Below are positions 9,610 to 35,489 of a DNA stretch of 64,000 nt, one piece after another (position 1 is the stretch's first letter; every line of letters starts with the position of its first letter). Where the stretch lies: the NCBI GenBank assembly GCA_021234155.1, contig JAJEKV010000336.1:62001-126000 (forward strand), written 5' to 3'. The DNA is from Isoetes taiwanensis. Lineage: Eukaryota; Streptophyta; Lycopodiopsida; Isoetales; Isoetaceae. The translations under genes were made by a program, and so were the position numbers. Under the pieces are notes generated by a model. It had not been told where the DNA came from and ran no database searches. It was given only the letters and a program-made list of their open reading frames with translations.

Positions 9610-11020
9610 TGTGCTGCTTTCCGGGCAGATAATTTATCATGTCATTTCATCAAAACGTTTGCACCTGATTTCTGATTGCTTTTATTTTGCTATCAACCTG
9701 CTTCTTGCCTGAATCCGATAGCTTCTGTAAATTTTCCGGAAAACTTTTGGGGTTTCCCTCAAAAAGTGGAATAGGGTCAAAAACAAATAAATCAAATGGG
9801 GTTGTTTCAAGTCCGTCGCCCTCTCCATCCATCGAATTCGACAAGGCCTAGAAGAAAGTCGAGCAAGCAGAAGCAGAGGAGGGAATTGGGATGGTCGGAG
9901 AAGAGGAGAAGTGATTTTCAGGGACTTTCTAATTTTCACGGCCGTCGGATGCAAAATTAAAAAATCTAATGGTTGAGATTAAAAATAGCTGACGTGGCAC
10001 GACATGTGGCATAGCTAGGAATGCAGGAAATCGGAGTTGGAAAACAAATTCACGAAAATCACAAGTCTCGCTAAGCACTTCGACAACTGGAGTTGGACTG
10101 TAGGCTTTCTCGATCACACTGCACAGGGAGTACAGACAAAATGCCTTTTTCCTGTGCAACCTTACAGAAAATCGACTGAACATTTGGTCTACTTGATCAT
10201 GCGTGTGGCCAACAAGTAAGAAGCCAACCTTGACCTTTCAGAAGATACCTAATTGGACCAGCATTGCACAGTAGGCAAATAGAACTTGGTTTTTGTTTTC
10301 CCTGCTTGTATTGTCTAGCTGTATGTAGAGCACTAAAGGCAACTTCTTCGTTGCCAGAAGAATCTTGTTCAGTATTGTCACCGTGAGGTTAGGATCACTG
10401 TGTATACTCTGCACTTTACCACGCCCTGAAAAACTAAAGCACCAACTAGATGCAACTTCAAGAAGTCGGCTTCATCTAAATCTTTAGGAACATTTATAAA
10501 ATGAGGAAGGAACGTCTTCTTTTGATTCATGCCATCTACTGCCACAGACATGTATTCAAGAGGCCTCTCCAAAGCTTTTTTTCTGTGTTTTCCAAGCTTC
10601 TTTCTTTCCAGGGCTTGAGCCTCTCTGTGTTCCTATAATTGTTGAGACATTTGTCAATATCACAGTCACTTGCGTTGCTATGCGCGCATAGACACAATGA
10701 CACGTATTTGGTTTCTCGCTATGTGCGCATAGACAAGTGACCAGGGTACATGAAGCATGCTATGCGCGCATAGACAAGCGACCAGAAAATAGGAAGCACG
10801 CTATGCGCGCATAGACCAGAGTCCTTGCTTTACAAATTGTGCTATGCGCGCATAGACAAAAGACAAATCTAGTTAAACTGTGTTACGAGCACATAGATAT
10901 GGGAACAGTACTTTGAAACAAAGAACGTACTTTTCTCGGGAAGATTATTTGTCATGGACCTTTTCTCCTTCAATACAGAATAGGTAGAATATACCGAGAA
11001 CCGGTGCCTTTCTGGGATCC
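9610..11020 (-). pseudogene. Transposase-like protein (GHTH-type family), copy B, 3' half
   Basis: C-terminal half of the transposase gene split by the element at 11,024-17,742. Exon 10,931-11,020 continues the reading from the 5' half across the insertion (RIPERHRFS, then LKEKRS) and ends at a GTACGT donor. An intron (10,633-10,930) packed with CTATGCGCGCATAG palindromes follows. The next exon reads LEYMSVAVDGMNQKKTFLPH, then LYIQLDNTSRENKNQ, then VGFLLVGHTHDQVDQMFSRF at about 10,170-10,230, then AYSPTPVVEVLSETCDF. LDN and GHTH-x3-D are the likely metal-binding residues of an RNase-H-like core. Breaks: a frameshift near 10,400 and an in-frame TGA at 10,238-10,240. A further exon (9,844-9,610) ends at a GTAAGC donor. 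The gene is dead but its family is clear. Confidence 0.82.
10678..10905. repeat. Palindrome cluster CTATGCGCGCATAG in the transposase B intron
   Basis: Exact copies of the 14-bp palindrome at 10,678, 10,760, 10,801 and 10,842, plus diverged copies near 10,719 (ATGTGCGCAT) and 10,883 (TTACGAGCACATAG). Spacing is roughly 40 bases. All lie inside the minus-strand intron 10,633-10,930; none enters the flanking exons. Confidence 0.92.
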
Positions 11021-11023
11021 TAA

Positions 11024-11039
11024 CACAAGGCCCCCAAAA
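11024..11039 (+). repeat. Left terminal inverted repeat
   Basis: CACAAGGCCCCCAAAA, directly preceded by the 3-bp target duplication TAA (11,021-11,023). Its exact reverse complement closes the element at 17,727-17,742. Confidence 0.9.
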
Positions 11040-11150
11040 TTGAATCATTATGATTTTTTTTTAATGGTTTGTTGGCGAAAACCAAATCCATAAATCAGTA
11101 CATGTTAGTGGGTTCAAAAGTTTACAAACCATGTCTAGTTAACTAATACG

Positions 11151-11358
11151 GTTCACCAACATATTTTTCTAAGGTGATAAGACAACATTGTTTTATGACA
11201 TGGTATTGAAACATGGCAATTTTAATTGGTCTCTGTAACAATTTAAACTATAGGGTTCTTCAACATATTTTTATAAAGTGATAAGACAATATTGTTTTAT
11301 GACATGGTATTGAAACATGGCAATTTTTATTGGTCTATGTAATAACTTAAATTATATG
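11151..11358. repeat. Subterminal tandem duplication, 104-bp unit
   Basis: Two adjacent copies (11,151-11,254 and 11,255-11,358) share long stretches such as CATGGTATTGAAACATGGCA. Repeats near the ends are usual in CACTA-like elements, where they serve as transposase binding sites; that role is inferred here. Confidence 0.75.
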
Positions 11359-11895
11359 ATATGAACTACTATTTAGTATGTCAAGTTTATTAGACTAGTA
11401 TTTGATCACATCTATCTTCTTCAATATATTGATATGGTAATTTTAAGCGCATATTTCTCATGATACTTTACAATGATTAATCATCAATACACAACGTGGT
11501 AAATAATTCTAGTTTAAATATGCTAATATGGCTTTTTTTACCTTGTTTTTCTCCATGGTACTAAAACATAATTATGACAGTTAGTTTTTCTAACAACTTA
11601 AAATATCTAACACGAACTAATGCTTAGTATTTGAAGTTTAATAGAATGGTATTTGATCGCATTTATCTTCCTCAGTATATTGACTTGATAAATTATTTAG
11701 ATATTTGTAGCAATCAATGGACAAGATATACCTAGTTTCTAATATACGATATTTGATAGTGCTTCCTGACCTAGTAATATAATATTAGAGCATGATATTT
11801 GGCCTTAATTAGCACAATAAACTTAAATGCTTTGAACATGTTTGATCACAAACCATGTTGTTACATGTAATGATTATTAATTGGTATTCGTTTAT

Positions 11896-13096
11896 TTTAT
11901 TTTATTTTATTTTATTTTTTTTTTGAAGAAACGGAGGTACCACTTTTTTATTTTCTGAAATAAGAGTACATGCAACAGCACAGGAGGAGATTACTATAGG
12001 AGCTCACACCTCAACTTCTTCATCTCCCCCTGGCATGCTTATTTAAACTCCTAATGAGTCAGATAGGAAATACATACACCAAAATACTCCTGAATAGCCC
12101 TTGATGAAGTAGAAAAGTAAACAAGAACACGAAACCTGTTTTGAAGTTGCTCCGGAAGTAAGCTGCAGTATGATCCTTAATGACATCGAAGGCATGTCGT
12201 TCGATACAGCGATCCACTCAAGCATATTAGTACTTGAGTTTTAACTTAAGCATCAGCACTTAAGTATCTAAAATGCTCAAGCTTATCAGTACTTGAGCAT
12301 GGATGGGCATATCAGTACCCTGGTAAAAATGTTCAAGTTAGAACATTAAAAATCCCTAGCTGTGCATAATGTCACTGTGCCATGTAGACCAATCAGCCCC
12401 ATCGAATCTTTTGCCCCTCCCGAGAAAAAGATAAGCCAGCTTCCTCTTGGAATATCAGACCCTAGTAACTAAAATGCTGCATTGTGGGGATTATGTACTC
12501 ATCATTCTGGTGCACTACGAGAAACCCAAGAACGCCTTCAAATCAAAACTTCACTGCCTTGTCTCTTAATCTGCTTTACCAATGAACTAATTCTTCCCCG
12601 CTAGCAAGGAAAAGGAGCAAAATAGACACGAAAGGCTTACTTTTCTATTTCTGACTTATGGTATTCCCCGCCTCAAGTTACAGTCTAAATAACTTCACAA
12701 ATTTGATACATCTTCTTTCTTTGCCTTGGTGTATGCATCTATAGAAAGGAGCCACGTTAGTGGCTGCTAAAGAAGCGATCCCTTCTACACCTTATGGGCC
12801 AGCATCCCAATTGGGCCATACCTTTTCAGTGTGTCAATGAGACATAGAACATACTGCCAAGAAAGAATACCTGGTGCATCACATTAGGGCCGTCTGAAGA
12901 AAAATAGACCGGCACCGTAGACAGATATGAAATGCTGCTGATAGAAGGAACAAACCTCTTCGGCCCTGCTAGCATCCATCGTTGAAAAAGGAGCATGATT
13001 CCGCTGTACTGGGGCGACCTAGAGCACAGGCGGCCGCCTGCCCTAGCCGCTGTGTAGCAGCGCCTTCGCGTGGCCGCCCATCAGAAGTGTTAAACC
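11896..13096 (-). mobile_element. Retroposon with poly(A)-like tail and 12-bp target duplication
   Basis: The minus-strand insert ends in an A-rich tail (plus strand 11,892-11,928, TTTTA repeats then a T run). It is flanked by the exact 12-bp direct repeat GTATTCGTTTAT at 11,884-11,895 and 13,097-13,108. This is the signature of LINE-machinery insertion. The body codes for no protein I recognise, and the 5' part (near 13,000-13,070) is markedly G+C-rich, so it may be a SINE-like or mRNA-derived insert rather than a truncated LINE. It sits inside the 6.7-kb element and is therefore younger than it. Confidence 0.75.
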
Positions 13097-14076
13097 GTAT
13101 TCGTTTATAAAACAATCTCACTCCAATATTTATCATTGTTTTTACTTAGGAGAAAAAAGAAGACAACATTTGAAAATGCTCATTTACACTTCTTATATTA
13201 CTAGGAAATTGTGACTACAATTCTGAAGGACAGATTATATAGATGAACAACTCTTTCAATGCAAGGATTCTCTCATTCGCTGAATTCCCATCTATTGCAG
13301 CATTTGTACTACATGACTCTGCACCAAAGAGCTTGCTGGATCTGCATACACAATGTTGAGCAAAAAAATTCAGCATAAAAAAAATAAACTGAACAACAAA
13401 CATCAAACTCTGTGTTGTGCAGGAACAAACATGCATAAGTTGAAGGAACAATTGTGCAATTGTGAAAGTGCACAACTTTCAAACTTCAAGCTAAAGAAGC
13501 TGGTATAGAAAGTTTTTTTTTTTCGAACCAAATGCAATTACTCCTCGAGTTGTGGGTTTAAAAAACTCTTTACAAAAAATATGAATGCAAACATACCCCA
13601 TCGTTCCTCAATTCCACAAGTCAATCCCATATAAGCTCCACCAAGGCATCCTGCATGTTTTATAAGTATCTCTTCAAAAAGTAATAAAGATTATTCATAC
13701 AAAGAAATATTACCGCCATTTTGCCAAGATGATTTTGCCTGAAAAATGAGCAAATGAGTAGGTGCACCTTAGCCATTTAACAAGGACTGCAATTTCGGCA
13801 TTTTATCATAAATGCCACTACATAGAAAAAAAAAAAAGATGGGCTTAACTCCATGATGTCCTGAAATTACATTTACATCTTTATGATAAAAAATATGTCA
13901 ATTACTAATCATATGCTCGATCAAGCAAGCCGTAAATATAATCAAACATGCAATACTTGCTGCATTGGCTAATCAAATGACATAAGGAAAGCAGGATAAC
14001 AATCAGAGATCATGTTTTAACACCTTATCTGCCATATTTCATCCAAAGATCCAGGCTAACACAAACAGCTAGAGAA

Positions 14077-15926
14077 CCCCTGACGTTCTCGAGCACTTGG
14101 GTGGTAGGGAAGGCTGCAGAATCCCAAACCCTACGAATTCAATAGGGTTTAAGTATCGGGGCACCAAAACAGCTTCATTTGTTAATCCAACCCGTCAAAA
14201 TGGTAGCTCGTGGTCCGAGGAAACATCTTGAAAAAGAAAAACTAGACATCCACTGCACGAATGTGCCATACCCCAAATTCCCCCCTTTCTCGACGCAAGG
14301 GCGCGGCAAGGAGCAGGACAAGTTTGGATATATAGTACCTGGGGAGGGTGTTTTCTTCCTCCCCCTTGGGGTTTCTCTTCAAGCCCTCGAGAGAAGCCTG
14401 CATGCAAGTTCTCGATCACTTGGTGGTAGGGGAAGGTCGCCAAATCCCAAACCCCCTACTTAATTCAATAGGGGTTTAAGTATCGGAACATCAAAACAGC
14501 TCCGTTTGCTAATCCGACCGTCAAAATGGTAGCTCATGTCTGAGGAAACATCTTCGAAAAGAAAAACTAGACATCCACTGCACGAATGTGCCAATCCCCA
14601 AATTCCCCCCTTTCTCGACGCAAGGGCACGGTAAGGAGCAGGACAAGTTTGGATATATAGTACCTGGGGAGGGTGTTTTCTTCCTCCCCCTTGGGGTTTC
14701 TCTTCAAGCCCTCGAGAGAACCCTGCACGCAAGTTCTCGAGCACTTCGGTGGTAGGGAAGGCTGCCGACTCCCAAACCCTACGAATTCAATAGGGTTTAA
14801 GTATCGGAGCATCAAAACAGCTCCGTTTGTTAATCCGACCGTCAAAATGGTAGCTCATGTCCAAGGAAACATCTTCAAAAAGAAAAACTGGACATCCACC
14901 ACACGAATGTGCGAATCCCCAAATTCCCCCCTTTCTCGAGGCAAGGGCACGACAAGGAGCAGGACAAGTTTGGATATATAGTACCTGGGGAGGGTGTTTT
15001 CTATGGGGTTTCTCTTCAAGCCCTCGAGGGAACCCTGCGACGCAAGTTCTTAAGCACTTAGGTGGTAGGGAAAGCTGCGAATCCCAAACCCTACTTAATT
15101 CAATAGGGTTTAAGTATCGGGGCACCAAAACAGCTCCATTTGTTAATCCGGACAGTCAAAATGGTAGCTCATGTCCGAGGAAACATCTTGAAAAGAAAAA
15201 CTAGACATCCATCGCTTCTTAATGTGTTAATCCCCAAATTCCCCCCTTTCTCGACGCAAGGGCGCGGCAAGGAGCAGGACAAGTTTGGATATATAGTACC
15301 TGGGGAGGGTGTTTTCTTCCTCCCCCTTGGGGTATCTCTTCAAGCCCTCGAGAGAACCTTGCATGCAAGTTCTCGAGCACTTCGGAGGTAGAGAAGGCTG
15401 CCGAATCCCAAACCCTACGAATTCAATAGGGTTTAAGTATCGGAGCATCAAAACAGCTCCGTTTGTTAATCCGACCGTCAAAATGGTAGCTCGTGTCCGA
15501 GCAACATCCTTGAAAAGAAAAACTGGACATCCACCGCACGAATGTGCCAATCCCCAAATTCCCCCCTTTCTCGACGCAAGGGCACGGTAAGGAGCAGGAC
15601 AAGTTTGGATATATAGTACCTGGGGAGGGTGTTTTCTTCCTCCCCCTTGGGGTATCTCTTCAAGCCCTCGAGAGAACCTTGCATGCAAGTTCTCGAGCAC
15701 TTCGGAGGTAGAGAAGGCTGCCGAATCCCAAACCCTACGAATTCAATAGGGTTTAAGTATCGGGGCACCAAAACAGCTCCATTTGTTAATCCGACCGTCA
15801 AAATGGTAGCTCATGTCTGAGGAAACATCTTCAAAAAGAAAAACTGGACATCCACCGCACGAATGTGCCAATCCCCAAATTCCCCCCTTTCTCGACGCAA
15901 GGGCACGACAAGGAGCAGGACAAGTT
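14077..15926. repeat. Satellite-like tandem array, ~320-bp unit, about 5.8 copies
   Basis: The phrase AAGGAGCAGGACAAGTT recurs near 14,305, 14,635, 14,958, 15,270, 15,592 and 15,912, giving a period of roughly 312-333 bases. Each unit also contains a TATATAGTACC phrase and CCCAAACCCTAC. The copies differ by small indels. Long open frames occur on both strands only because the unit is nearly stop-free; I do not treat them as genes. The array ends abruptly near 15,926 within a unit. Confidence 0.9.
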
Positions 15927-16929
15927 AACAATGTTTAGGAATTTCATATGTGGAAAAGAGATGGCAGTCTTGGGATTGTCTCTTAAGGGTATTAACTGTT
16001 ATGAAGGAAGGTGCAGGAAAAAATATCTGCTTCTTCTTGATTGAAGAACCTTCTATTTGAGGTACTTGAGCTTAGTTCATCTCCTTTTGTTTTGTAATCA
16101 TAAAAATCTATTATGTTTACTCTAAGTTCAATCACTTGCCATAATGTTAAGTTGGCTGCGATGTTTAGCTTTACATTTGGAGCGGTTTAATAAGCTAGCT
16201 ATAAAATTATTTTTTACCTTGATATTGTAGTAGTTTTTTGAGCTAAGCATTATAAAATTGTTAGTTAAGATGGTGTCGATGGTATCTCTATATTTACATA
16301 TGAGTGGTCATTATTCCTGCGCTAAACCTCACAAAACAATTGCCAATTTCTTGGCTAAATGACATTACAAGGTTTCTTACAATATTAAGTAACGGAGGCA
16401 AAGCATTCACCTTTGGTTTTTGACGTTACACTAATCACAAATTTCTAATATTGCTACGAAGTTACAAGCTAGATATCCAATTCACTACAAGGTTTCTTTT
16501 ATTGGGAAGCAACACATTGATTTTAATCTATGTCATTAGTGACATGTTGTTTATTTTTCTTTTGTAAAATTTATTGATAAGGCTCATTTGATTCTACGAA
16601 GCCTTACACGCGTATGCTTCCTATATATTTAGAAGCTTTGCATCTTTATTAAGGCTCAAAACAATTGCATTTGGAAAAATACAATATTAACAACATGATT
16701 AACACAAGAATAAACTATTAACGAGCATAGTAAACAACCACGTAAAGAAAACCTTAGCATCTTTGCAAATTTTAACATGGTTCTCAAACTAATAAGAAGA
16801 ACGCGGTAGAACAAATTTGTGACAACTAGCATGTAAACGCATCTGAAATTATGATACTAAAAATGTATATAGAAAAATCATTCCATTAAATTAATAATGA
16901 TTTTCAAAGATCATCATAAACTCTAGAAT

Positions 16930-17640
16930 TCATAAGTTAAATATAGTACGAACTAGGAATGGTTTTGCAAAATCAAGATGTGCTTAAAACACATCTTCTA
17001 AACTATTGATGATTTCAAAAAATAATTGTACGATTGTAGAATTCATGTAATTAAACATGATATGAACTAGCAATGATTTTGCTAAAAAACTATACACTTA
17101 AAAACAATCTCACAAATTAGTTATGATTTCTATAAATCTTTGAATTAGTACAAAAAATACGATATGAAGCACTGTTGGTCTTGCAAAATCAATATATGCT
17201 TAAAATACATCTTCTAAACTATGGATGATTTCAAAAAACTATTATATGATTATGGAATTCATGTAATTAAACATGATATAAACTATTAGTGATTTTGTTA
17301 AATCAATCTACACTTAAAAACAACCTTATGAACTAATAATGATTCCTAGAAACTAGTGTAAAATTTTGAATTAGTACAAAAAATATGATATTAGCCACTA
17401 CTGGTTTTTCAAAATCAATATATGCTTAAAACACCTCTTCTAAACTATTGATGATTTCAAAAACCTATTGTACAATCGTAGAAGTCATGTAATTAAACAG
17501 GATATGATTTTGATAAATCATTGTACATTAAAAAACAATCATACAAACTAATGATGATTTCTAAAAACTACTGTAAATTTATGAATTAGTACAAATAATA
17601 TGATATGAACTACTATTGATTTTGCAAAACTAGGAAGAAC
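16930..17640. repeat. Right subterminal repeats, ~220-bp unit, three copies
   Basis: A unit containing TTGCAAAATCAATATATGC and CTTCTAAACTAT recurs at about 16,995, 17,211 and 17,437, followed each time by ATGATTTC. The block ends about 100 bases before the right terminal inverted repeat, consistent with subterminal repeats of the 6.7-kb element. Confidence 0.75.
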
Positions 17641-17726
17641 ACATGATTTTTCTTTACATTTTGTATTGTCGTATAAAAAAATCATATATATGCTGGTTTT
17701 CATGCTAATTTTTTATACAAGTTCAT

Positions 17727-17742
17727 TTTTGGGGGCCTTGTG
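17727..17742 (-). repeat. Right terminal inverted repeat
   Basis: TTTTGGGGGCCTTGTG, exact reverse complement of the left end, followed by the TAA target duplication at 17,743-17,745. Confidence 0.9.
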
Positions 17743-17745
17743 TAA

Positions 17746-18602
17746 CAAGATTGAATTCTTGCTTCCGCAATCTTAAGAAGTAAGAGTAGGATATGAACGA
17801 CTGACTTGAAGACTGGAAAAGATCTTTGTACATGATATAGACTTCTTTCTTGGTAATGTTGTCCGTAAGATGATGAACAGGACTGTTGGGTAGTCGCTCA
17901 CAGTTTAAGTCAAAGAAGCCCACCAACCATGCTTTTGCTTCCAAGCAATGCACATCAAATACTTTCTTTGGGTGACAGTAGTCGTCAATGCACGGATTTC
18001 TGTCTAACCGTTTTTGTACCCTTGGCATGCGACGACTTCTAATGGCATGTATTCTTTTGAAAGCCACCTGGGAAACAGTTACGTTCAACACGTAGTATGA
18101 AAAACTGTCGCCTCGTTCAGGCCTCACGTGATATGCTAGGTAGGATTCCTGGTCACCTTTAGACATTGACAAGAAGGATTGTCTTGTTTGCCTTAAGGAC
18201 GAAAAAGGGAAGTTGCTGAAGAGGTCTCTCTGCAGAATCTATTATGTTTTGCAACGAACGGTGCAATTCCTGTAGAGGTGAAGGAGTTTCAAAAATTGAG
18301 TGGGTGGTGTGAGTAGGTGAGGCCGAGGAAACACCTTGTCGGAGTGAGGGAGATGGTGTTCTAAACACAGAGGAACGCTGTAGAACGTGTGTTGACGAAG
18401 GAGTTTGAAAGGAGGTAGACCCACGCATTAAGTGTATTGGCGACGGAGAAACAAAGCTTCCAGATGGACTATCAAGGGACGGTATGTCACGTAAATCTTT
18501 GTCTTCACTGCTTTGTGTGGGTGTGCTCAACCCGCCTCGAGGCAATAATGAAAGATTCGCAGGCGGAGATAAAAAACTTTTTCTTGAGTGGCTGCCGTCC
18601 AT
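17746..18602 (-). pseudogene. Transposase-like protein (GHTH-type family), copy B, 5' half
   Basis: N-terminal half of the split transposase. A likely start is the ATG at 18,600-18,602 (MDGSHSRKSF), although an AG acceptor just before it suggests a further 5' exon. Residues 1 to about 140 are rich in Ser, Thr and Pro with repeated TPS/SPS phrases, a disordered, probably DNA-contacting tail. Then comes the family's conserved N-domain: VSQVAFKRIHAIRSRRMPRV, WLVGFFD, NSPVHHLTDNITKKEVY and SYSYFLRLRKQEFNLV, the last running into the insertion site at 17,745. One frameshift lies in a T-run near 18,205 (removing one T restores the frame). The gene faces away from the methyltransferase gene, with start codons about 540 bases apart. 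Confidence 0.8.
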
Positions 18603-19141
18603 GCTACAAATGGATAAAGACCTGTACTCAGAAACAAATATGCACCACACCTACTGTGCATGTACTAAGTAAGGAAGTACACTAACTAATTAAAATAGTA
18701 TTAGTAGAAGCTTGCCTATGCGCCAAGATAGAGGGTGTAAGATGAATCGCTATTGCCCATGCGCGCATAGACAAGATGTCATAAATTACTGTGAGAGATA
18801 AACCTGTTACCTACTTGAGCACGGGGAAGACGTAATAATAAAGTCTATAGCTCAAGCGAAGGAAGACAAGATAAGATAAACAACTGTAAAGGAAGAGCGG
18901 GAAATACGAAGAGACTTTGTGTGGGGTTGACACTCCATAAAGGATTGCATGAAATGACACGCTACACTCTTCATGTATAATCTCATAGAAAATATCCAAG
19001 TACTAACGTAGACAATAAATAGAAAAAGGGCACATTTCGCATCGAGAGGGCACCGAAGCTCCCTGGCGCCGACCTGCCTTCACACTCACTCGCTTTTTTA
19101 CATATCGAAGTCTATAAGAAGTCGCATAGACTCGCTTGCAA
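18603..19141. promoter_or_regulatory. Divergent intergenic region between transposase B and methyltransferase gene
   Basis: About 540 bases separate the two start codons. It contains diverged palindromes of the CTATGCGCGCATAG family (CCCATGCGCGCATAG near 18,757; a half-site near 18,715). A shared bidirectional promoter is inferred from the head-to-head layout; no certain TATA box is assigned. Part of it may be a 5' exon of the transposase gene. Confidence 0.45.
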
Positions 19142-19329
19142 ATGGCAGGTGGAAGGTACGTCAAGATCTTAGCTGCTAGTTAATTAGCTCATTTTTTTTT
19201 TTTTTTGTGCATTATTTGCTTAATTAGGCTGCCTCTAAAACGATTAAAAATGTCAATTTCTTAAGTATTTCTGGCCTTCTTCCTATGTTCTAGATATGTT
19301 TTGTTTGTTTTAGGTCATTTTGTGATTGG

Positions 19330-19650
19330 GTTTATCTATGCGTGCATGGGAACAAAGGTTTTTTTAGTGCTTGTCCTTGCTTAGCCTATGCGTGCATAGA
19401 CACAAATCTTTTTTCTTAAGCTTTGCCTATGCGTGCATAAATACAAAGCTTTTTTTCTCAAGCTTGACTATGCGCGCATGGGCTTCAGCCTTTTTTTTAA
19501 TCTGATCCTGTGCGCGCATGGGCATAACACTTTTATTGAAGGTCGCCTATGCGCGCATGGGCTCAAAGCTTTTCTTTTGTAGTATGCCTATGTCACTATT
19601 GGGGATAAGATTTTCTGAATTGGTTGGCTATGCACGCATAGGCAAACGAT
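19330..19650. repeat. Palindrome-related array in intron 1 of the methyltransferase gene
   Basis: About seven diverged copies of the C-TATGCGCGCATA-G family recur every 50-60 bases, for example CTATGCGTGCATGGG near 19,337, CCTATGCGCGCATGGGC near 19,547 and CTATGCACGCATAGG near 19,629. Most are followed by a T-rich run, giving a loose tandem unit. The array fills the 3' part of intron 1. Confidence 0.85.
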
Positions 19651-21828
19651 GTTTTAATACTTTACTGTTCTTAATATTTTAGTAAGAAGAGAAGCCTTGC
19701 ACGGGGTAGCCAGGATGATGAAGGTGGACCCTTCTCAGAAGGCAGCCAGGAAGAGGAGGACGACGAAAGACAAGAGTCAGGATGCAGTTCTGGCTCCAAG
19801 TCAACACCAATTTCAGGAGGCCGAAGATGGCTCCTATTTTTGTAAGGATCAGCAATGGTTGCTTGTCAGGGATACCGGTGATCCAGCAACTGCGCATTTT
19901 TTGTATTTATACATTTGTTCTGAGACCGGCAAGCAAACACAAGACCTGGAAAGCTTCGGAAGATGTTGCGGGCTCGTGGATGCTGATATGTTTGGTATGT
20001 TCCACATCAAGTGCACAACCACCACCAAGGGCAGTGAACATGTATATTCTGTGGATAGTTCATTTTTTTGAGCTGAGTTTGTCTTCTCCAGAAGATATGC
20101 AAGGCTACATTCAGGCAAGAATGAAGAGTAAAATTGTAAGTGTTATTTTCCTGCACGAGAAGACTTTACCAACATGTTTGGTCTATGACATCATAGGTTT
20201 TGTTTGCAGGATCTTGTTCCTATACTAAAGGATCTTCTTTTGAACAAGGATCCTCTGTTAAGTTCTAGCGCACCTCCTGCTAAGCTGCTGAAGGATGCCA
20301 TGCCTCAAGTTGCCAAGATAATCATCCCCAGAATCTCAGAAACTGTTGAGATGGCAACAATAGATGAAGAGGAACCTTCGGATCCCGAATCTGAAGAGGA
20401 AGAGTTTGAGGTTGAAGTGGTGGAGAGGCCAAGAAAAAAGAAAGCCAAAAGAAATTATTACAAGGCGGGCCTGGTGACTGACACTGCTCCACCAACTAGC
20501 AAGGCATCAAAAAAAGCCACTAAGGTAGTTTTGCCTCCAGCACCGGGTACAAGGATTGCCAGTAAGGAAAAAGACATGACTTCTAGGAAGCTCGAAGAAA
20601 TTGAGCTGAGATGTCGTGTGCCTGGGATCATGCACCTGCAGGTTGATTGTGTTAAGTTGTGCCCAAAGGATGAGTCTGGTAAGAGACCTTTGCAGGTGAG
20701 AAAAATTTACTCTGGTCATTTGTCTGCTCTTAAGGAACGCATAAGGGACAGACCAAATGCAGCTACAGCACCGCACATTTGCATTGTTGACCCTTCCTAG
20801 TGCACGGAAAAGGGATTTGTTTGTAAAGGAAGAGGATGAAAGCTACAGGTATTTTGTTTTGGGTGGCACTCACAGCTTTAAGGCGAGGAGGCAGCTTTAT
20901 AAAGAAACTAAAGAACACTGCTTCTCTCAAATATTTGCATTTGTTTACGTGGGTGTCACTGACTCTGAAGCCAAGTTGCTTGCTATGAGCCACAATGTGG
21001 ACAATGAATATCGGATGAGCATGAGCTTCACTGACAAAATTAAGCTTATGCATAAGGAATACGAGCTTTTTAGGTCAGAGCGTAAGGGTGACAAAGATAT
21101 AAAGGATGATCAAAATCTTTATCTGGCTCTTAAAGAGCAGTGTGCTACAGAGTGCTGCTTAACATACAACTCCACTGATGCCAGAGCATCTCTTGTGAAG
21201 TACGACAACTACTTCCAACTAGCTTTTAGGCATGGACGTGTAAGATAACTTTCTTCTCCAAGTTCTTTGACCATGCGCGCATAGCTGTTCAGTTTTCTTA
21301 CCTTTATTTCTTTCTTGTTCCTTTTTAGGTCTGGGAACTTCAAGAAATTTTTTTTGATATGTTTGCTGAGGGTACACTGAAATCCAAAGGAAAGGTGAAG
21401 GATCCAAAAAGAAAAAAAATGGAACCTGCAAAACAGAAGGACATGGGCATCATGGTTTGGAGGGAAATGCAGGGTTTAAAAAATACAGAAAAAGTTTGTG
21501 AGGTGCTGCAGAAGGTGGTCAATGGCCACTTTACCTTGGAAGAGATGCAGGGTGAATTCAAACAGTAAGTTAAATTCCTGATCCAAAACACTAGCTAGTT
21601 CTTGTTGGTAGTTTACGTTCCAGAGTTTTTTAAGACTCCTTACTTTTGCAACCAAAAGGATTGTGCACTCTGTCAGTAGCAACTCATGGTCCACCTTAAC
21701 TGTGACACATGGGAAAAAGTTAAAGAATTATACCCTACATGGTCGTCAGATGAAAAGATAAACCAGTACGCTTTGAATTTCACGAACTGGGTAAAATTTG
21801 TTGTTCCCCTACTTATCTTCTTGTGTGC

Positions 21829-21997
21829 CTATGCGCGCATAGCACTACAAGAAGTCCATTACTGTGGTGCTATGCGCGCATAGGCTGACACTCAGAACTT
21901 TTGTTTTCTTCTTCTTACTAAAGTTGTTTTCTTGTTGTGTGGCTATGCGCGCATAGCACCACAAGAAGTCTATTATTGTGTTGCTATGCGCGCATAG
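21829..21997. repeat. Four exact CTATGCGCGCATAG palindromes in one intron
   Basis: Exact copies at 21,829, 21,870, 21,943 and 21,984, as two pairs repeated with a 114-base period inside intron 21,791-22,056. Between the members of each pair lies a conserved CACAAGAAGTC phrase. A further diverged copy (CCATGCGCGCATAGC) sits in the preceding intron near 21,270. Confidence 0.92.
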
Positions 21998-23229
21998 GAA
22001 GACACTTTGCATTTTCGTCTTCTTGTTCTTACTAAAGCTGTGTTCTGTGGTTTTAGAAAAAGAAGGACCCGATGCCGCCAATGTTTCTTAACATGGTTAG
22101 ACTTGCTAAGGAAGAGCGCGCCAAGCTAAAGAAGAAGGAAGAAGCTGAGCAAAGTTTTGTACCAACAGAATTTGAAAGGTTTGACATGTTTGGCCAGAAT
22201 TGTTTATACCAGATATATCATGGAAATTGTGTCAAACTTGACCATACGTTGAAACCTGGCAATTATTCGTTGTGTATTGCTGATATTCCTTATGGGTTCA
22301 AGCTACCTGATAGTTGAGGAGATGATTCTCCATTTACTTATGCTGAATTTGATTCTTTCTTGAGACATTTCGTCAAAATAAATACTGCACCGCTTTGAAG
22401 GATAGTAGTTTTTCATTCAAGTAATCAGGTAGGTATGGTACAAGCTGCAATGAGAGAGCACTGCAAAGCTGGTTACGAGCCAGCCATTTGGTAAGTTATT
22501 TCTTTTTGCTATGCGTGCAAGGCTTGTAAATGTTTGGGAACAGATGCACATTGGTTACCACAGCATTGGTGAACAGAGAAGCATTTTGCACTATAATACT
22601 GCTGGAATGGATTTGCGTAATGCGTTTCAATTCCAAGCAGTCATTCAGAAATTAACAGACCCAGTACACCAGGGTCGTATAGTCAATCCTTATCAGGAGC
22701 CTCAACAGCTTATTAATACCCTTTTAGAGATGTTTTCACATCCAGGTGACTGGGTCGTCGATGCCTTCTCAGGGTTAGGGACCACCTTGGCTTGTGCTTT
22801 AAAAAAGGGTCGCAACTGCCTTGCAATTGATTTTGATAAGGATTCTGTGGTTTATATGAAATCCAGAATAAGTTCTCTGCACAGCCTGCTAGATGAAAAG
22901 CAGGAGGTTGGCCTTAAGGATAAGGATGGTAATCCCGCAGCTTCAAGCTCAGAGCCTTTGCCGCCACTCACCGGGAACACCAACGATCCGGCCGAGTTCG
23001 TCGAGCTTGTTCCTGTAGAAGAGCTTCAAAAGGTTGTGGAAGAGAAGGATGCCTCAGACACTGACGAAGTTAATCCTGACAGCTCTACTAAGGTTCCATC
23101 TCCTCCAAATTCTGATGATGAACTTGTTCACGAGGATCCTCCTCTTGATATTTAATGTGTGCTAAAAAAAGGACATTTTTTTAAGTGCCTATATTATTGT
23201 ATTAAATTACTGAAATATAACTTTGTTGT

Positions 23230-23243
23230 CTATGCGCGCATAG
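23230..23243. repeat. CTATGCGCGCATAG palindrome in the 3' flank of the methyltransferase gene
   Basis: One exact copy, extended to GTCTATGCGCGCATAGAC, lies 75 bases after the stop codon. It is the rightmost copy seen in the window. Confidence 0.9.
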
Positions 23244-24274
23244 ACATTCTTCCTTCCCTTTGTATTTTTGTGTCGTATGAAAGTGCATCTTCTTAGTGTG
23301 TCTTAACACAAAATCTGTCGCTCGCTTTTAGAATGCAACTTTATTTTTTGGTATTTGTTTTTTTTTAAATGGTCAAAACTGTCGAATTTACGTTTTTTTG
23401 AAAAAGAAATATGCAATTGCACCACAGGTCATTAGTGCGTTTGCACCGTCACCTTGTTACCAAAAAACCTATTTGGAGTAATCTGAGAGTGTACTTTTTT
23501 CCAAGTTAAAGAATTCATGCATATTAAGGAACCCAATATGCTGGTTGATAACTCTGGAGCTAGCATAAAGCTTTGCTCTATATGAGAGCAACTTGACAAA
23601 AGCTGCATCACTCTACAGTAACGTGCAACATGAAAACAATTAGCTAATAGTCTCATTAAGATGAAAACAATTAACTGATCGTCTCCTAAGCGAACTGGTT
23701 GGTTCAAAGCTTCATTAGATGAAGCAATCCCTTAGCCTGTAGCAGGGTACCTAAAGTTTTTGTCTTCAGTCTTTTATTAATTTCAGGAGGCGTAATCAAT
23801 GTATGAAAGTAAATCCTAACCCTAATCTATAACATGGCCTATGTGCCACCTATGTTTGACACGACCATCTATGCTGCATAACCTCATAGCTATAAGGTAT
23901 CTTATGTTACTTTTTCATTTACTTCAATCTATCTGCGCCGCCTTCTCACTCACATTTACACAAACAATTTCACACCTGCCCTACTGGTATTCCAATTTTG
24001 CATTTACATAATTCTACTTTCAAAGGTCCAGAATACTAAGTTGATATAAACATTTTGGATTTTCTCACTAATCTTTTTACTTTGCATTTTTCTTTTTACT
24101 TATCACTTTTCTTTGATTAGAAAAGAAAAACCCTTGCTTTAGGTATGTAGAACGTTTTTCAATAGTTTTTGGATAGAAAAGTTGCATATAAGTTACAAGT
24201 TTATAGTTACAAGTCATTATAAGTCGTATAATAGACATTTGAGCAGACGCGCCACATCCTATATTATAATGTTA
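23244..24274. other. Non-coding, no feature recognised
   Basis: A/T-rich DNA without a recognisable gene. The right boundary of the transposase/methyltransferase module should lie here or near 23,250, but I could not identify a terminal repeat or target duplication. Confidence 0.4.
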
Positions 24275-24757
24275 CTAGTAATAACGCCCAGCGTTGCTGG
24301 GCATACGTTGGTAGCATGTAATAGTTTTGGCCGCAATGAGAAAAGCGGGGCAATAATCTAACATTTTTTTATTTTTATTATAACAAAAAACTTTTCTAAT
24401 ATTTAACGTCTAAAGAAACTTACTTAGTTCATGTAAGATCTCAGAGAGCATTGCGTAGAAAAGGATGGTGCTTCTTCATAGCAATTCTGATCTCTTCCGT
24501 TTTTTCTGAAGGTTTTGTTTGTTGATGAATTTAACCTCTATTATGTTCCCAAGTTCCTGTTGGTTGGCTATAGTGATGGCATCTATGTTCGCGTATGTAT
24601 GGTGTTGTCCACCTAACCTCTTAAGGACCTTCTTGTTGTTTTTTAGCATGTTACTCCTTGGTATGAAGATGGCCTTGTCATACAACAGGTGTACATCTGT
24701 CTCCATTATTTCCTTGTCGAAGATGAAGTCCAAATAATGGCGTGTCTTAATGCCCAA
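24275..24757 (-). mobile_element. Helitron 3' end with helicase fragment
   Basis: On the minus strand the element ends with the hairpin GCCCAGC-AAC-GCTGGGC (24,286-24,302) followed about 8 bases later by CTAG and then T: the classic plant Helitron 3' terminus. Upstream on the same strand, 24,757-24,476 encodes a 93-residue piece with TDVHLLYDKAIFIPRSNM and KKVLKRLGGQHHTY, matching the region of Helitron PIF1-type helicases that follows the nuclease-helicase core (usually ...RAIL-TPRN...N). The frame then ends early, so the copy is decayed. Confidence 0.78.
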
Positions 24758-32618: not shown

Positions 32619-35306
32619 TAATATTTTTTCCATGTGTATAAGTTAGCTAAGCAGAAGTCTTTAAGAGGCAAAACAATGAAACGCCACACAGAATGGTACA
32701 AATCACCAGTAAGACCTTTCAGTTATTTTTCAAGCCTATACATATTCAAATGTGCTGAGATGGCATGTAAACATCCTGAACATCCTGAACATGCAACTTT
32801 TACTTCATAGGATACCATCCATCTTGAACATGCAACTCATTACTTTTGCTTCATAGGATCTTGAGACTTTATATTTGTCTCTTTGCTTGAGCTTTTATGC
32901 ATTCTGCTGAGAATTTATTGTGTTTATTCACATATGCTTCCAGGTCGTAGGAATAAGGAGTATTTGTCTTGAGGAGTCAGGTTTAACTTCTCAATCCCAT
33001 TCAAGATGGGGCTACAAGTTCATATGAGCCCTCTAGGGATTGATTTATGTCAATGATGCATTTGATAAAATCAAATGCTCAATGCTAGATTTGACAAATT
33101 TGAAGGTATAAAACCCATGTTGAACCAGAAGTTCAATTTTCTTATATAGGTGGTTTCAAACATGGTTTAAATTATGTTATTAACAGGTTCAAGATGTCCA
33201 CGTTATTAGGATCATGGCATTTTCAAGGAAGGAAGGAAGGAAGGAAGGAAGGAAGGAAGTATCATGGCACCAACTTTAGGCGCAACATCAATGGACAAGG
33301 TATCTAGGCATTATTTTCTAGCATAATAATTTGTGTTCTCAGATTCAATTGCATGAATATGCGGTGATCTTCGCTTTAAAAAATAATCACTATCATCTTT
33401 AATTCTATTCATATATGCAAATTTTACTTAGCATGTAATCAAGGATAAATTATTTTTATGATTTGATCATTTATTAATTGTTTCTACAAGTTGACCCGCC
33501 AGCTCATTGGCAAAATGACATTTGAAAAAATCTTCTTACAATAGCTGTGCAGATGATTCCATGAGGCTCAATGTTGAAAATGCAAGTTTTAGCTCAATGA
33601 AACTCCATAACTTAATCTGTAAATAGCTGATATGTGGATCCATGTTGCAAAGTCAAGGAATATCAGAGTTTCTTTGACCAATTTAGTTTTTCCTCGGGCC
33701 AATTCTTGCAAAGAAGTTATTCCTCATCTTCATTGTCGTTCCTTACATTTAGCCAATACCTCAGCGACTTTACAATGGAGGCAAGCATTCAGCCAATACC
33801 TCAGCGAAGCATGCAAACACGAAATTTACAATGGAGGCAAGCATGCAAACACAAAATTTAATGGTGCATAAGGTGCCCTTTGAATGCAATGCAATATTCA
33901 CAAGGGCAATTGTTTGGCAATATTCACACGACAATTGTTTTGGTAACTGTTTTGTTAGTGTGACTCCCCTTTACTCAAACTATATAACAAGCATCTTTTG
34001 CATGATTTATCTATTCATTTTTGTTATCAAAGCCTTGGAATCGTCTTCAAACATGTTATACCAACAGGAAATCCTTCAAGCGATATGATGCGCTTTTAGG
34101 CCACAAACGGAATTGCTACATTTATTCCTTTGGCCAAATTTATGTATTTCTATTTGTATTAGACAATGCACCTTATTTCCAGATGCATTTTGAAGTTACA
34201 AATGCAGAAAACACCAGGATACTCATTATAATGCTCAGTCGCAACATCGCAGTTATTTTGCTAACATTTCCTATATGTTTTGATTGTCCCATAAGACCTT
34301 TCTTTGTCCTATAAGACCTTTCTTTGTCCTATAATAGTGCCAAACAAAAATACTGTGCCAATGTTTGAGTGTTGCGATATGAACAGTGTTTTTGTATTTC
34401 ATGCAACCATGAAATAGAAACCTATAATAGAGTGGCAGTATTTAACAGTGGTAAAAGCCAAAATGTGCGCACATACTTTACTATAGACACATATGTATAA
34501 AGAAAGAAAGAAAGAAAGAAAAAGATAGATAGATAGATAAACGCATAAGAAACACTTATATTTCGAAAGAGACACTTATATTTCAAAAGTTCTATCTCAA
34601 TAAAACATTTATAACAAATATAAAGACATTTTTGGAAAATCATAAATAAGCCATGGATACGATTGGTATTGGTCTTACATGCGTTACAAATAATTCATTA
34701 GCTGCTTCTTGGTAGAGGTGAAGGCCAACCAAGTTCAGCATAGCAAGGTTACTTTCACACCCTTCTATGCATATCTAACTCATCATCTTGAAGATTGACT
34801 CCACACCAACTCCACATTTCATAATCAAAGATATACCCATAAAAAAGCTTTAACAAGCCCACTCACACTCTTGCTCATAATTCATGCTTACCTTCTTAAT
34901 GATGTGGCCTTGGTTTATTAAATAACATTATTGTGTTTGTGTGTATTTATGCGTACATGTGTCTGTCGTGAATCAAAATCTTGGCAAGGGTTCAAATAAC
35001 ATTGGCTAGGATATTAGGGGCAGGTTCATGTTGCTGCTAGGTTAGACAACAACATGACTTTGCCATGACAAGGGGGGATAGGGATATGCTCTGCAACAAT
35101 GACAACAACAACAATAGTATATCTCTCTATCTTGATCTTCTAAGTGCAAAGAGGGTAATCTTCTAAGTGCAAAGAGGGTACTTTACTTCAACATGAAGGA
35201 ATATTATCGTTATTATTTTGTCAAAGATTAAGACTGGAGCAAAAGGAAAGAGCGTTTTTTAAAACTATTCCAGAATTACAAGAATTATCTCTTAAACATC
35301 ATTCAC
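32619..35306. other. Non-coding, no gene recognised
   Basis: Apart from two microsatellites, I see only short A/T-rich open frames without motifs. Confidence 0.35.
33222..33260. repeat. (GGAA)n microsatellite
   Basis: About nine perfect GGAA units. A second simple repeat, AAAG units followed by ATAG units, lies at about 34,500-34,540. Confidence 0.9.
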
Positions 35307-35489
35307 AAGTTCTTACTACCAAGCAACGCTGGGCACCGTTACTAGTAAGCAAAGAATTTTTTTGAAACATTATATTTTGGAAGGTGTAATTTCGGCAAGT
35401 TCTTACTACCCAGCAACGCTGGGCACCGTTACTAGTAAGCAAAGAATTTTTTTGAAACATTATATTTTGGAAGGTGTAATTCCGGCAAG
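35307..35489 (+). mobile_element. Duplicated Helitron 3' terminus (90-bp tandem)
   Basis: Two tandem units with a period of 90 bases. Each holds a hairpin (CCCAGCAACGCTGGG, exact at 35,409-35,423; one arm base mutated in the first copy) followed by ACCGTTACTAG and T; the CTAGs are at 35,342-35,345 and 35,432-35,435. These are plus-strand Helitron 3' ends closely related to the minus-strand one at 24,275. The duplication includes about 50 bases beyond the CTAG, so it is a tandem duplication after insertion, or a relic of end bypass. Confidence 0.78.

Follow-up and report, generated by a model that had tools for sequence, protein, structure and literature searches.

The 64,000-nucleotide window analyzed here, from contig JAJEKV010000336.1 of Isoetes taiwanensis, contains a decayed copy of a DNA transposon family in which a DUF7869 transposase gene lies head-to-head with a gene encoding a ParB-like region and a predicted DNA methyltransferase. 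Arrays of a 14-bp near-palindrome occupy the introns and flanks of these genes, and the motif changes between lineages of the family, a pattern suggesting that a lineage labels or recognizes its own DNA. As a whole, the family is probably best explained as a transposon with an element-encoded reader of the lineage motif that would mark or shield its own element, where binding, methylation, and benefit are steps that we infer. No publication describing this element was found in our literature searches.

We searched a genome of 1.66 Gb in 1110 contigs, which contains the window and has introns and repeats of plant-like appearance, and compared 18 stretches retrieved from the first places listed for the palindrome (of 1551 genome-wide). 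The all-against-all alignment of the loci shows sharp ends, at which the terminal inverted repeats of the family start with AACAAGGTGAC. When scanned with two end sequences, 15 of 19 loci, the 18 fetched and the window, showed the terminal repeat (at most eight mismatches) and eight showed both ends; none was found in L006, L012, L015, and L017. The two-ended copies carry a 4-bp target duplication that is identical in seven of the eight and matches at three of four bases in the other, L018. In tblastn comparisons (E 1e-5), five of the 18 fetched loci contain DUF7869 together with parts of the second gene (L007, L010, L012, L013, and L017, the last with only the ParB-like part of the second gene), three contain DUF7869 alone, and ten contain neither gene. 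These ten loci (L005, L008, L009, L014–L016, L018, L019, L021, and L022) retain the palindromes; seven are two-ended with lengths of 2.6–5.7 kb, two are one-ended, and L015 is without a detected end. They are non-autonomous derivatives. Inverted ends, 4-bp duplications, and dispersed gene-less copies thus identify a DNA transposon with many internally deleted copies, as the first-pass annotation anticipated when it proposed a eukaryotic mobile element: dispersed copies are many, and the gene-less ones share the palindromes. The family has terminal inverted repeats, a target duplication of fixed length, and a transposase with a predicted RNase H fold, and its assignment to the cut-and-paste DNA transposons is well supported for the transposase-and-ends part.

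Lineage-specific palindromes

The motif CTATGCGCGCATAG has nine exact occurrences in the window and 19 within two mismatches, compared with a shuffled-sequence mean of 0.16 for the latter count. All 19 sites are confined to 10678–10855 and 18757–23243, and none overlaps the coding stretches, which we assigned ourselves; the earlier description of nine or more palindromes lying only in introns and flanks agrees with this distribution. The corresponding overlaps are 0 of 17 in L046 and 1 of 20 in L047, the latter at the end of the last open frame. Gene-bearing copies carry approximately 12–20 motifs (at most two mismatches) in introns, between the genes, and in subterminal positions. We judged enrichment against a backward control of the same sequence: CTATGCGCGCATAG has 1551 places genome-wide and its control has 0. 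An even spread of the palindrome, which the first-pass annotation had named as a finding against its proposal, was not observed, since the motif is clustered in the 18 fetched stretches and the element end sequence is present in 14 of them.

Four motifs share the frame [C/G]TAT-N6-ATA[C/G] and differ in the center. Lineages I, II, and IV carry the window's motif CTATGCGCGCATAG. The locus L047 has the same gene order as the window and a methyltransferase exon 42–44% identical to the window's; there, CTATGCGCGCATAG is absent within two mismatches and GTATAAATTTATAC has 15 exact occurrences. Genome-wide, GTATAAATTTATAC has 12,556 places versus 17 for the control and is thus eight times commoner than CTATGCGCGCATAG, so lineage VIII or its derivatives may dominate the genome. 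Lineages V and VII carry GTATTCCGGAATAC (3,720 places versus 0), and a single degenerate site fits in lineage VI. Lineage III carries the near-palindromic CTATGACGGCATAG (113 versus 2); two C1033 places have a listed motif upstream of a methyltransferase exon, starting at distances of 71 and 81 bp, and the C911 locus contains four listed motifs. Another candidate for the lineage III motif, CTATAACGTTATAG, was rejected, with 1 place versus 38, and the repeat there is CTATGACGGCATAG; CTATAACGTTATAG serves as an example of a palindrome that is not enriched. That such palindromes are a general genomic feature was likewise rejected, given the backward controls of 0, 17, 0, and 2 and the single place of CTATAACGTTATAG. 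The linkage of motif to gene draws on four loci with readable genes (the window, whose copy is without a left end, the interrupted L025, L046, and L047) and on five decayed loci plus partial stretches for lineages III, V, VI, and VII.

The arrays have a helical spacing. A step of exactly 41 bp recurs in several window arrays, and 145 neighbor distances of at most 130 bp (85, 52, and 8 from three motif families) cluster at multiples of ~10.7 bp with a phase clustering R of 0.60, a value that none of 4000 jittered sets reached. When the commonest spacing classes are set aside, the values are R 0.50 (n = 44) and 0.69 (n = 26), and in an earlier distance set, in which 51 of 69 distances were left after the removal of similar spacers, it is 0.52. 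Because related arrays are partly dependent, we take the direction of this result and not its exact probability. A motif that is enriched, lies outside the exons, keeps a helical phase, and changes between distant lineages with its outer bases constant behaves like a recognition site under selection. The lineage-specific motifs and the helical spacing lend indirect support to the first-pass proposal that the element would mark or recognize itself through the palindrome.

The divergent gene pair

The exons of the minus-strand gene match PF25273 (DUF7869) in Pfam with E values of 1.5e-18 and 8.5e-18, which upholds the earlier call of a transposase-like ("GHTH") gene, and no other Pfam family was matched at E up to 1. 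The predicted fold of the transposase resembles integrase and Mos1, the integrase and mariner cores being the VIA-align matches listed. In the 5′ part, 17726–18238 has coding homologues in L006, L007, L010, L012, L013, L017, L020, L025, L046, and L047, and 18162–18650 is an adjoining open stretch. The L025 transposase is interrupted beside its 5′ exon by open stretches that we take to resemble pogo/Tigger-type transposases.

The 3′ end of the plus-strand gene matches PF01555 (N6_N4_Mtase) with an E value of 2.6e-12, and the open exon of L046 does so with 4.8e-16. Motif IV (DIPY) precedes motif I (DAFSGxGTT) in the usual motif numbering, and this is the beta-class order; we read the gene as encoding a predicted beta-class N4/N6 DNA methyltransferase domain. 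Its closest solved relative is CcrM (E 1.5e-8), and its closest annotated phage gene is the stand-alone FP_Mushu enzyme (E 4e-12, 25% identity); the match to bacterial relatives is restricted to the surroundings of the catalytic motifs (58 loci). Twenty stop-free methyltransferase exons form about eight clades with pairwise identities of 41–98%. The ratio of nonsynonymous to synonymous substitution rates (dN/dS) in the methyltransferase core is 0.03–0.21 for all but one of the 13 within-clade pairs compared, the exception being 0.61, and it is saturated between distant copies of the second gene. The 20 exons were chosen for being open, which biases dN/dS somewhat; despite this bias, values near 0.1 require selection on the protein, and the methyltransferase is kept under purifying selection. 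A bacterial-type methyltransferase on the element agrees with the acquired modification enzyme that the first-pass annotation proposed.

The same annotation had described a ParB-like segment joined to the methyltransferase; the methyltransferase part stands on the PF01555 match, and the ParB label is weak. Matches of phrog_723 to this region in the window, L010, and L017 reach E values of only 0.06–0.21, and that of TIGR03764 in L046 reaches 0.083. In appearance the region resembles a ParB N-terminal domain, with YYVLGGTHSYKARKEL followed by YVGVTDEEAKVIAVSHNLDN. It is conserved in a distant lineage, with 46% identity between the window and the distant copy L047 over 20204–21242. There was no Pfam ParB match and no ParB among the PDB search results, and unrelated families (PF24077, PF20188, and TIGR00040) reach E values of 0.004–0.006 on the region; in view of the weak model scores, we name it ParB-like and not ParB. 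Queries with the joined ParB–methyltransferase protein gave no match at E up to 0.001 among 4393 candidates and, in a second search, none at E up to 10 among 1008, which is weak evidence of absence because the queries came from a decayed copy and the candidates were limited to near-query lengths. The ParB-like stretch had no tblastn match in phages. In viral contigs, the palindrome pair occurs in 0 stretches, two scans with window exons found no relative, and a scan with alignment A3 gave two weak loci.

Both genes are abundant: the methyltransferase exon (2682 candidates) and DUF7869 (9153 candidates) each score at least 150 matches in the genome. Among the matches listed, 33 gene pairs lie within 25 kb, involving 32 of 150 methyltransferase matches; 31 pairs are divergent, and a shifted-position control gives a mean of 0.61 and a maximum of 3. 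The 25 listed pairs within 10 kb are all divergent and 5.2–8.0 kb apart, and some listed pairs are stop-free in both matched exons. The remaining listed methyltransferase matches, with no listed DUF7869 within 25 kb, say little either way, since both lists stop at 150. That the two genes are never found together, the second outcome named against the original proposal, is contradicted by these recurring divergent pairs.

Anatomy of the window copy

The features of the window copy are collected in Table 1. Its left homology limit lies at 10036–10038 in locus alignments with L006, L010, L012, L013, and L020, so the left edge previously placed at 9610 is wrong; the scan for end sequences detected no left terminal repeat in the window. 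The open stretch at 9653–9847, considered as a transposase C-terminus, was rejected for want of a convincing match in other loci. The right terminal inverted repeat finishes at 23458 as a perfect match (0 mismatches). The copy has decayed by two in-frame TGA codons and a frame break in the second gene, its exons fall in different frames, and ~30 nt are left where L025 has an intron of ~100 nt.

Table 1. Features of the transposon copy, in window coordinates.
Feature	Position	Strand	Basis
Transposon copy, left-truncated, decayed, including nested insertion	10036..23458	.	homology stop at left, terminal repeat at right
DUF7869 transposase 3′ exons, motifs LDN..ENKN and GHTHDQVDQMFS	10036..10632	-	PF25273
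Five palindromes at exact 41-bp steps, transposase intron	10678..10855	.	
Nested insertion inside transposase gene, inverted ends CACAAGGCCCCCAAAA, TAA at 11021–11023 and 17743–17745	11024..17742	.	by eye
Transposase 5′ part, N-terminal region, two frames	17726..18650	-	homologous coding stretches and adjoining open stretch
Intergenic region between the divergent genes, one motif at 18757	18651..19142	.	sequence, reading frames
Palindrome, 1 mismatch, between the divergent genes	18757..18770	.	
Seven-palindrome array (1–2 mismatches each), spacing 39–50 and 81 bp, intron 1 of second gene	19336..19641	.	
N-terminal coding stretch, second gene	19683..20068	+	tblastn matches in L007, L010, L012, L025, L046
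ParB-like region and charged linker (YFVLGGTHSFKARR, YVGVTDSEAKLLAMSHNVDN), with a frame break near 20797	20204..21242	+	reading frames
Palindrome, 1 mismatch, intron of second gene	21271..21284	.	
Middle exon, second gene	21329..21564	+	reading frames, locus comparison
Short exon, second gene	21680..21790	+	reading frames, locus comparison
Four exact palindromes in two pairs with 41-bp spacing, intron of second gene	21829..21997	.	
Predicted methyltransferase, first half, motif IV (DIPY), two in-frame TGA	22057..22491	+	homologous stretch open in L046, L047
Degenerate palindrome, 3 mismatches, shortened intron	22509..22522	.	exact copy in corresponding L025 intron
Predicted methyltransferase, second half, motif I (DAFSGLGTT)	22522..23155	+	PF01555 E 2.6e-12
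Exact subterminal palindrome, ~215 bp inside right end	23230..23243	.	
Right terminal inverted repeat AACAAGGTGACGGTGCAAACGCACTAATGACCTG, read on minus strand	23425..23458	-	same ends in other copies

The transposase gene was split later by the nested insertion, which has a TAA duplication. A 321-bp unit is repeated 5.7 times within the insertion at 14085–15926, and a 226-bp AT-rich unit is repeated about three times at 16960–17629. Outside the copy, sequences at 24276 and 35306–35489 resemble, by eye, what we take to be the Helitron 3′-end signature (a GC-rich hairpin followed by CTAGT); the latter is a 90-bp tandem duplication.

Readers of the motif and known systems

In the explanation that we prefer, the DUF7869 RNase H-fold transposase would act on the AACAAGGTGAC ends and produce the 4-bp target duplications, and an element-encoded protein would have the 14-bp motif as its cognate site, the likeliest candidate being the ParB-like/methyltransferase fusion. 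The motif-reading protein would load cooperatively on sites mostly on one helix face, and the loaded fusion would methylate bases at or near these sites. The mark or the loaded protein could then protect the element from host silencing, or license only same-lineage ends for transposition, and alteration of the central six bases would leave distant lineages unable to recognize each other. The fusion is proposed as the reader that marks or shields the element by analogy with the VANC proteins of VANDAL transposons, for which this logic is proven in Arabidopsis. The most far-reaching form of this proposal is a self-addressing superfamily, in which the ParB-like/amino-methyltransferase of each main lineage would recognize that lineage's 14-bp near-palindrome and no other, spread along helically phased arrays, and place a mark on adenine or N4-cytosine, setting element DNA apart from the host and from rival lineages; we advance it tentatively, as a little less probable than not. 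A directed role of N6-methyladenine and N4-methylcytosine in multicellular eukaryotes is disputed.

The main rival reader is the transposase. In this case, the DUF7869 protein, or its N-terminal region, would bind the motifs for end pairing or autoregulation, and the methyltransferase would be independent of the motif. Subterminal repeats are transposase binding sites in other DNA transposons, the window, L007, L008, L011, L016, L019, and L022 have a motif whose start lies ~230 bp from the right end, and the motifs are kept in gene-less copies (10 of 18 loci), as expected for sites acted on in trans. However, numerous motifs are found well away from the ends, within introns or between the genes, which is more like an internal mark than an end-pairing site, and we consider a transposase reader unlikely. 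The motif arrays could also be transcription sites, where an element or host regulator acts on the divergent promoter and introns with no DNA modification; they are concentrated around the divergent start region and the first intron, and helical phasing fits cooperative binding by many kinds of protein. A site that changes with the element lineage is unexpected for a host factor, and the subterminal sites and gene-less copies also retain motifs, leaving this account with a small chance of being right. Slightly less probable still is a passenger role for the second gene, in which the captured bacterial methyltransferase would have a general activity that is not directed at the element itself. 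Its bacterial and phage relatives are beta-class methyltransferases that match around the catalytic motifs, and the annotated phage gene examined is stand-alone, but the second gene recurs with the transposase across lineages only 41–52% identical and is under purifying selection. Neutral, minisatellite-like spread by local duplication in hitch-hiking introns is very improbable: some arrays are true tandem repeats and the 114-bp unit at 21816–22046 is a duplication, but four different motifs share one outer frame, coding sequence is avoided, and the helical phase is maintained in the 51 of 69 spacers left after similar ones were dropped.

VANDAL elements, of the MuDR group, have a MuDR transposase and a 9-bp target duplication. 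With 4-bp duplications and PF25273 as the sole Pfam match at E up to 1, the present family falls outside that group; it differs further in its DUF7869 transposase, its DNA methyltransferase, and a 14-bp near-palindrome with helical spacing. The likeness to VANDAL/VANC is in an element-encoded factor and in a short motif that is repeated in introns and upstream non-coding DNA of the element, specific to lineages, and partly tandem (PMC5735166). As in VANC-like systems, a lineage-specific motif is dense in the non-coding DNA of the element here. According to excerpts of the same source, VANC motifs in Arabidopsis are found within introns and in upstream regions, are not the same in VANDAL21 as in VANDAL6, and evolve through tandem repeats; they have 8–9 bases and are not palindromic, and VANC causes a loss of DNA methylation (PMC5735166).

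In the case of giant algal viruses, Mariner-2_PGv and Mariner-1_OLpv are DNA transposons that likewise encode a methyltransferase beside the transposase, but their methyltransferase is a C5 or Methyltransf_26 enzyme and they also carry an endonuclease, and no lineage-specific palindrome is described for them in the excerpts of PMC3627910. Several fungal DNA transposon lineages also carry a DNA-modification enzyme, TET/JBP dioxygenases, proposed to counter silencing; these elements differ in oxidizing methylcytosine instead of amino-methylation, and the word "subterminal" is absent from the main text of the source (PMC12730594). The 4-bp target duplications are shared with Sola2 (PMC3627910, in part), which is the only agreement with the Sola superfamily. 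CcrM, RsrI, and the phage FP_Mushu enzyme share PF01555 and the motif order; unlike the stand-alone FP_Mushu enzyme, the methyltransferase here sits within a transposon, where a spliced eukaryotic gene joins it to another region. Literature searches found no publication on private-address transposons whose likely reader is a DNA methyltransferase. A conserved, selected bacterial-type amino-methyltransferase (at least 150 scored exon matches) stands alongside directly readable candidate target sites that differ by lineage, and this offers an internally controlled test, in which each enzyme is expected to act at the motif of its lineage alone. If the proposal is true, this family would amount to a modification system that belongs to a eukaryotic transposon and whose recognition code changes, and it would be the second case, after VANDAL, of transposons evolving private addresses.

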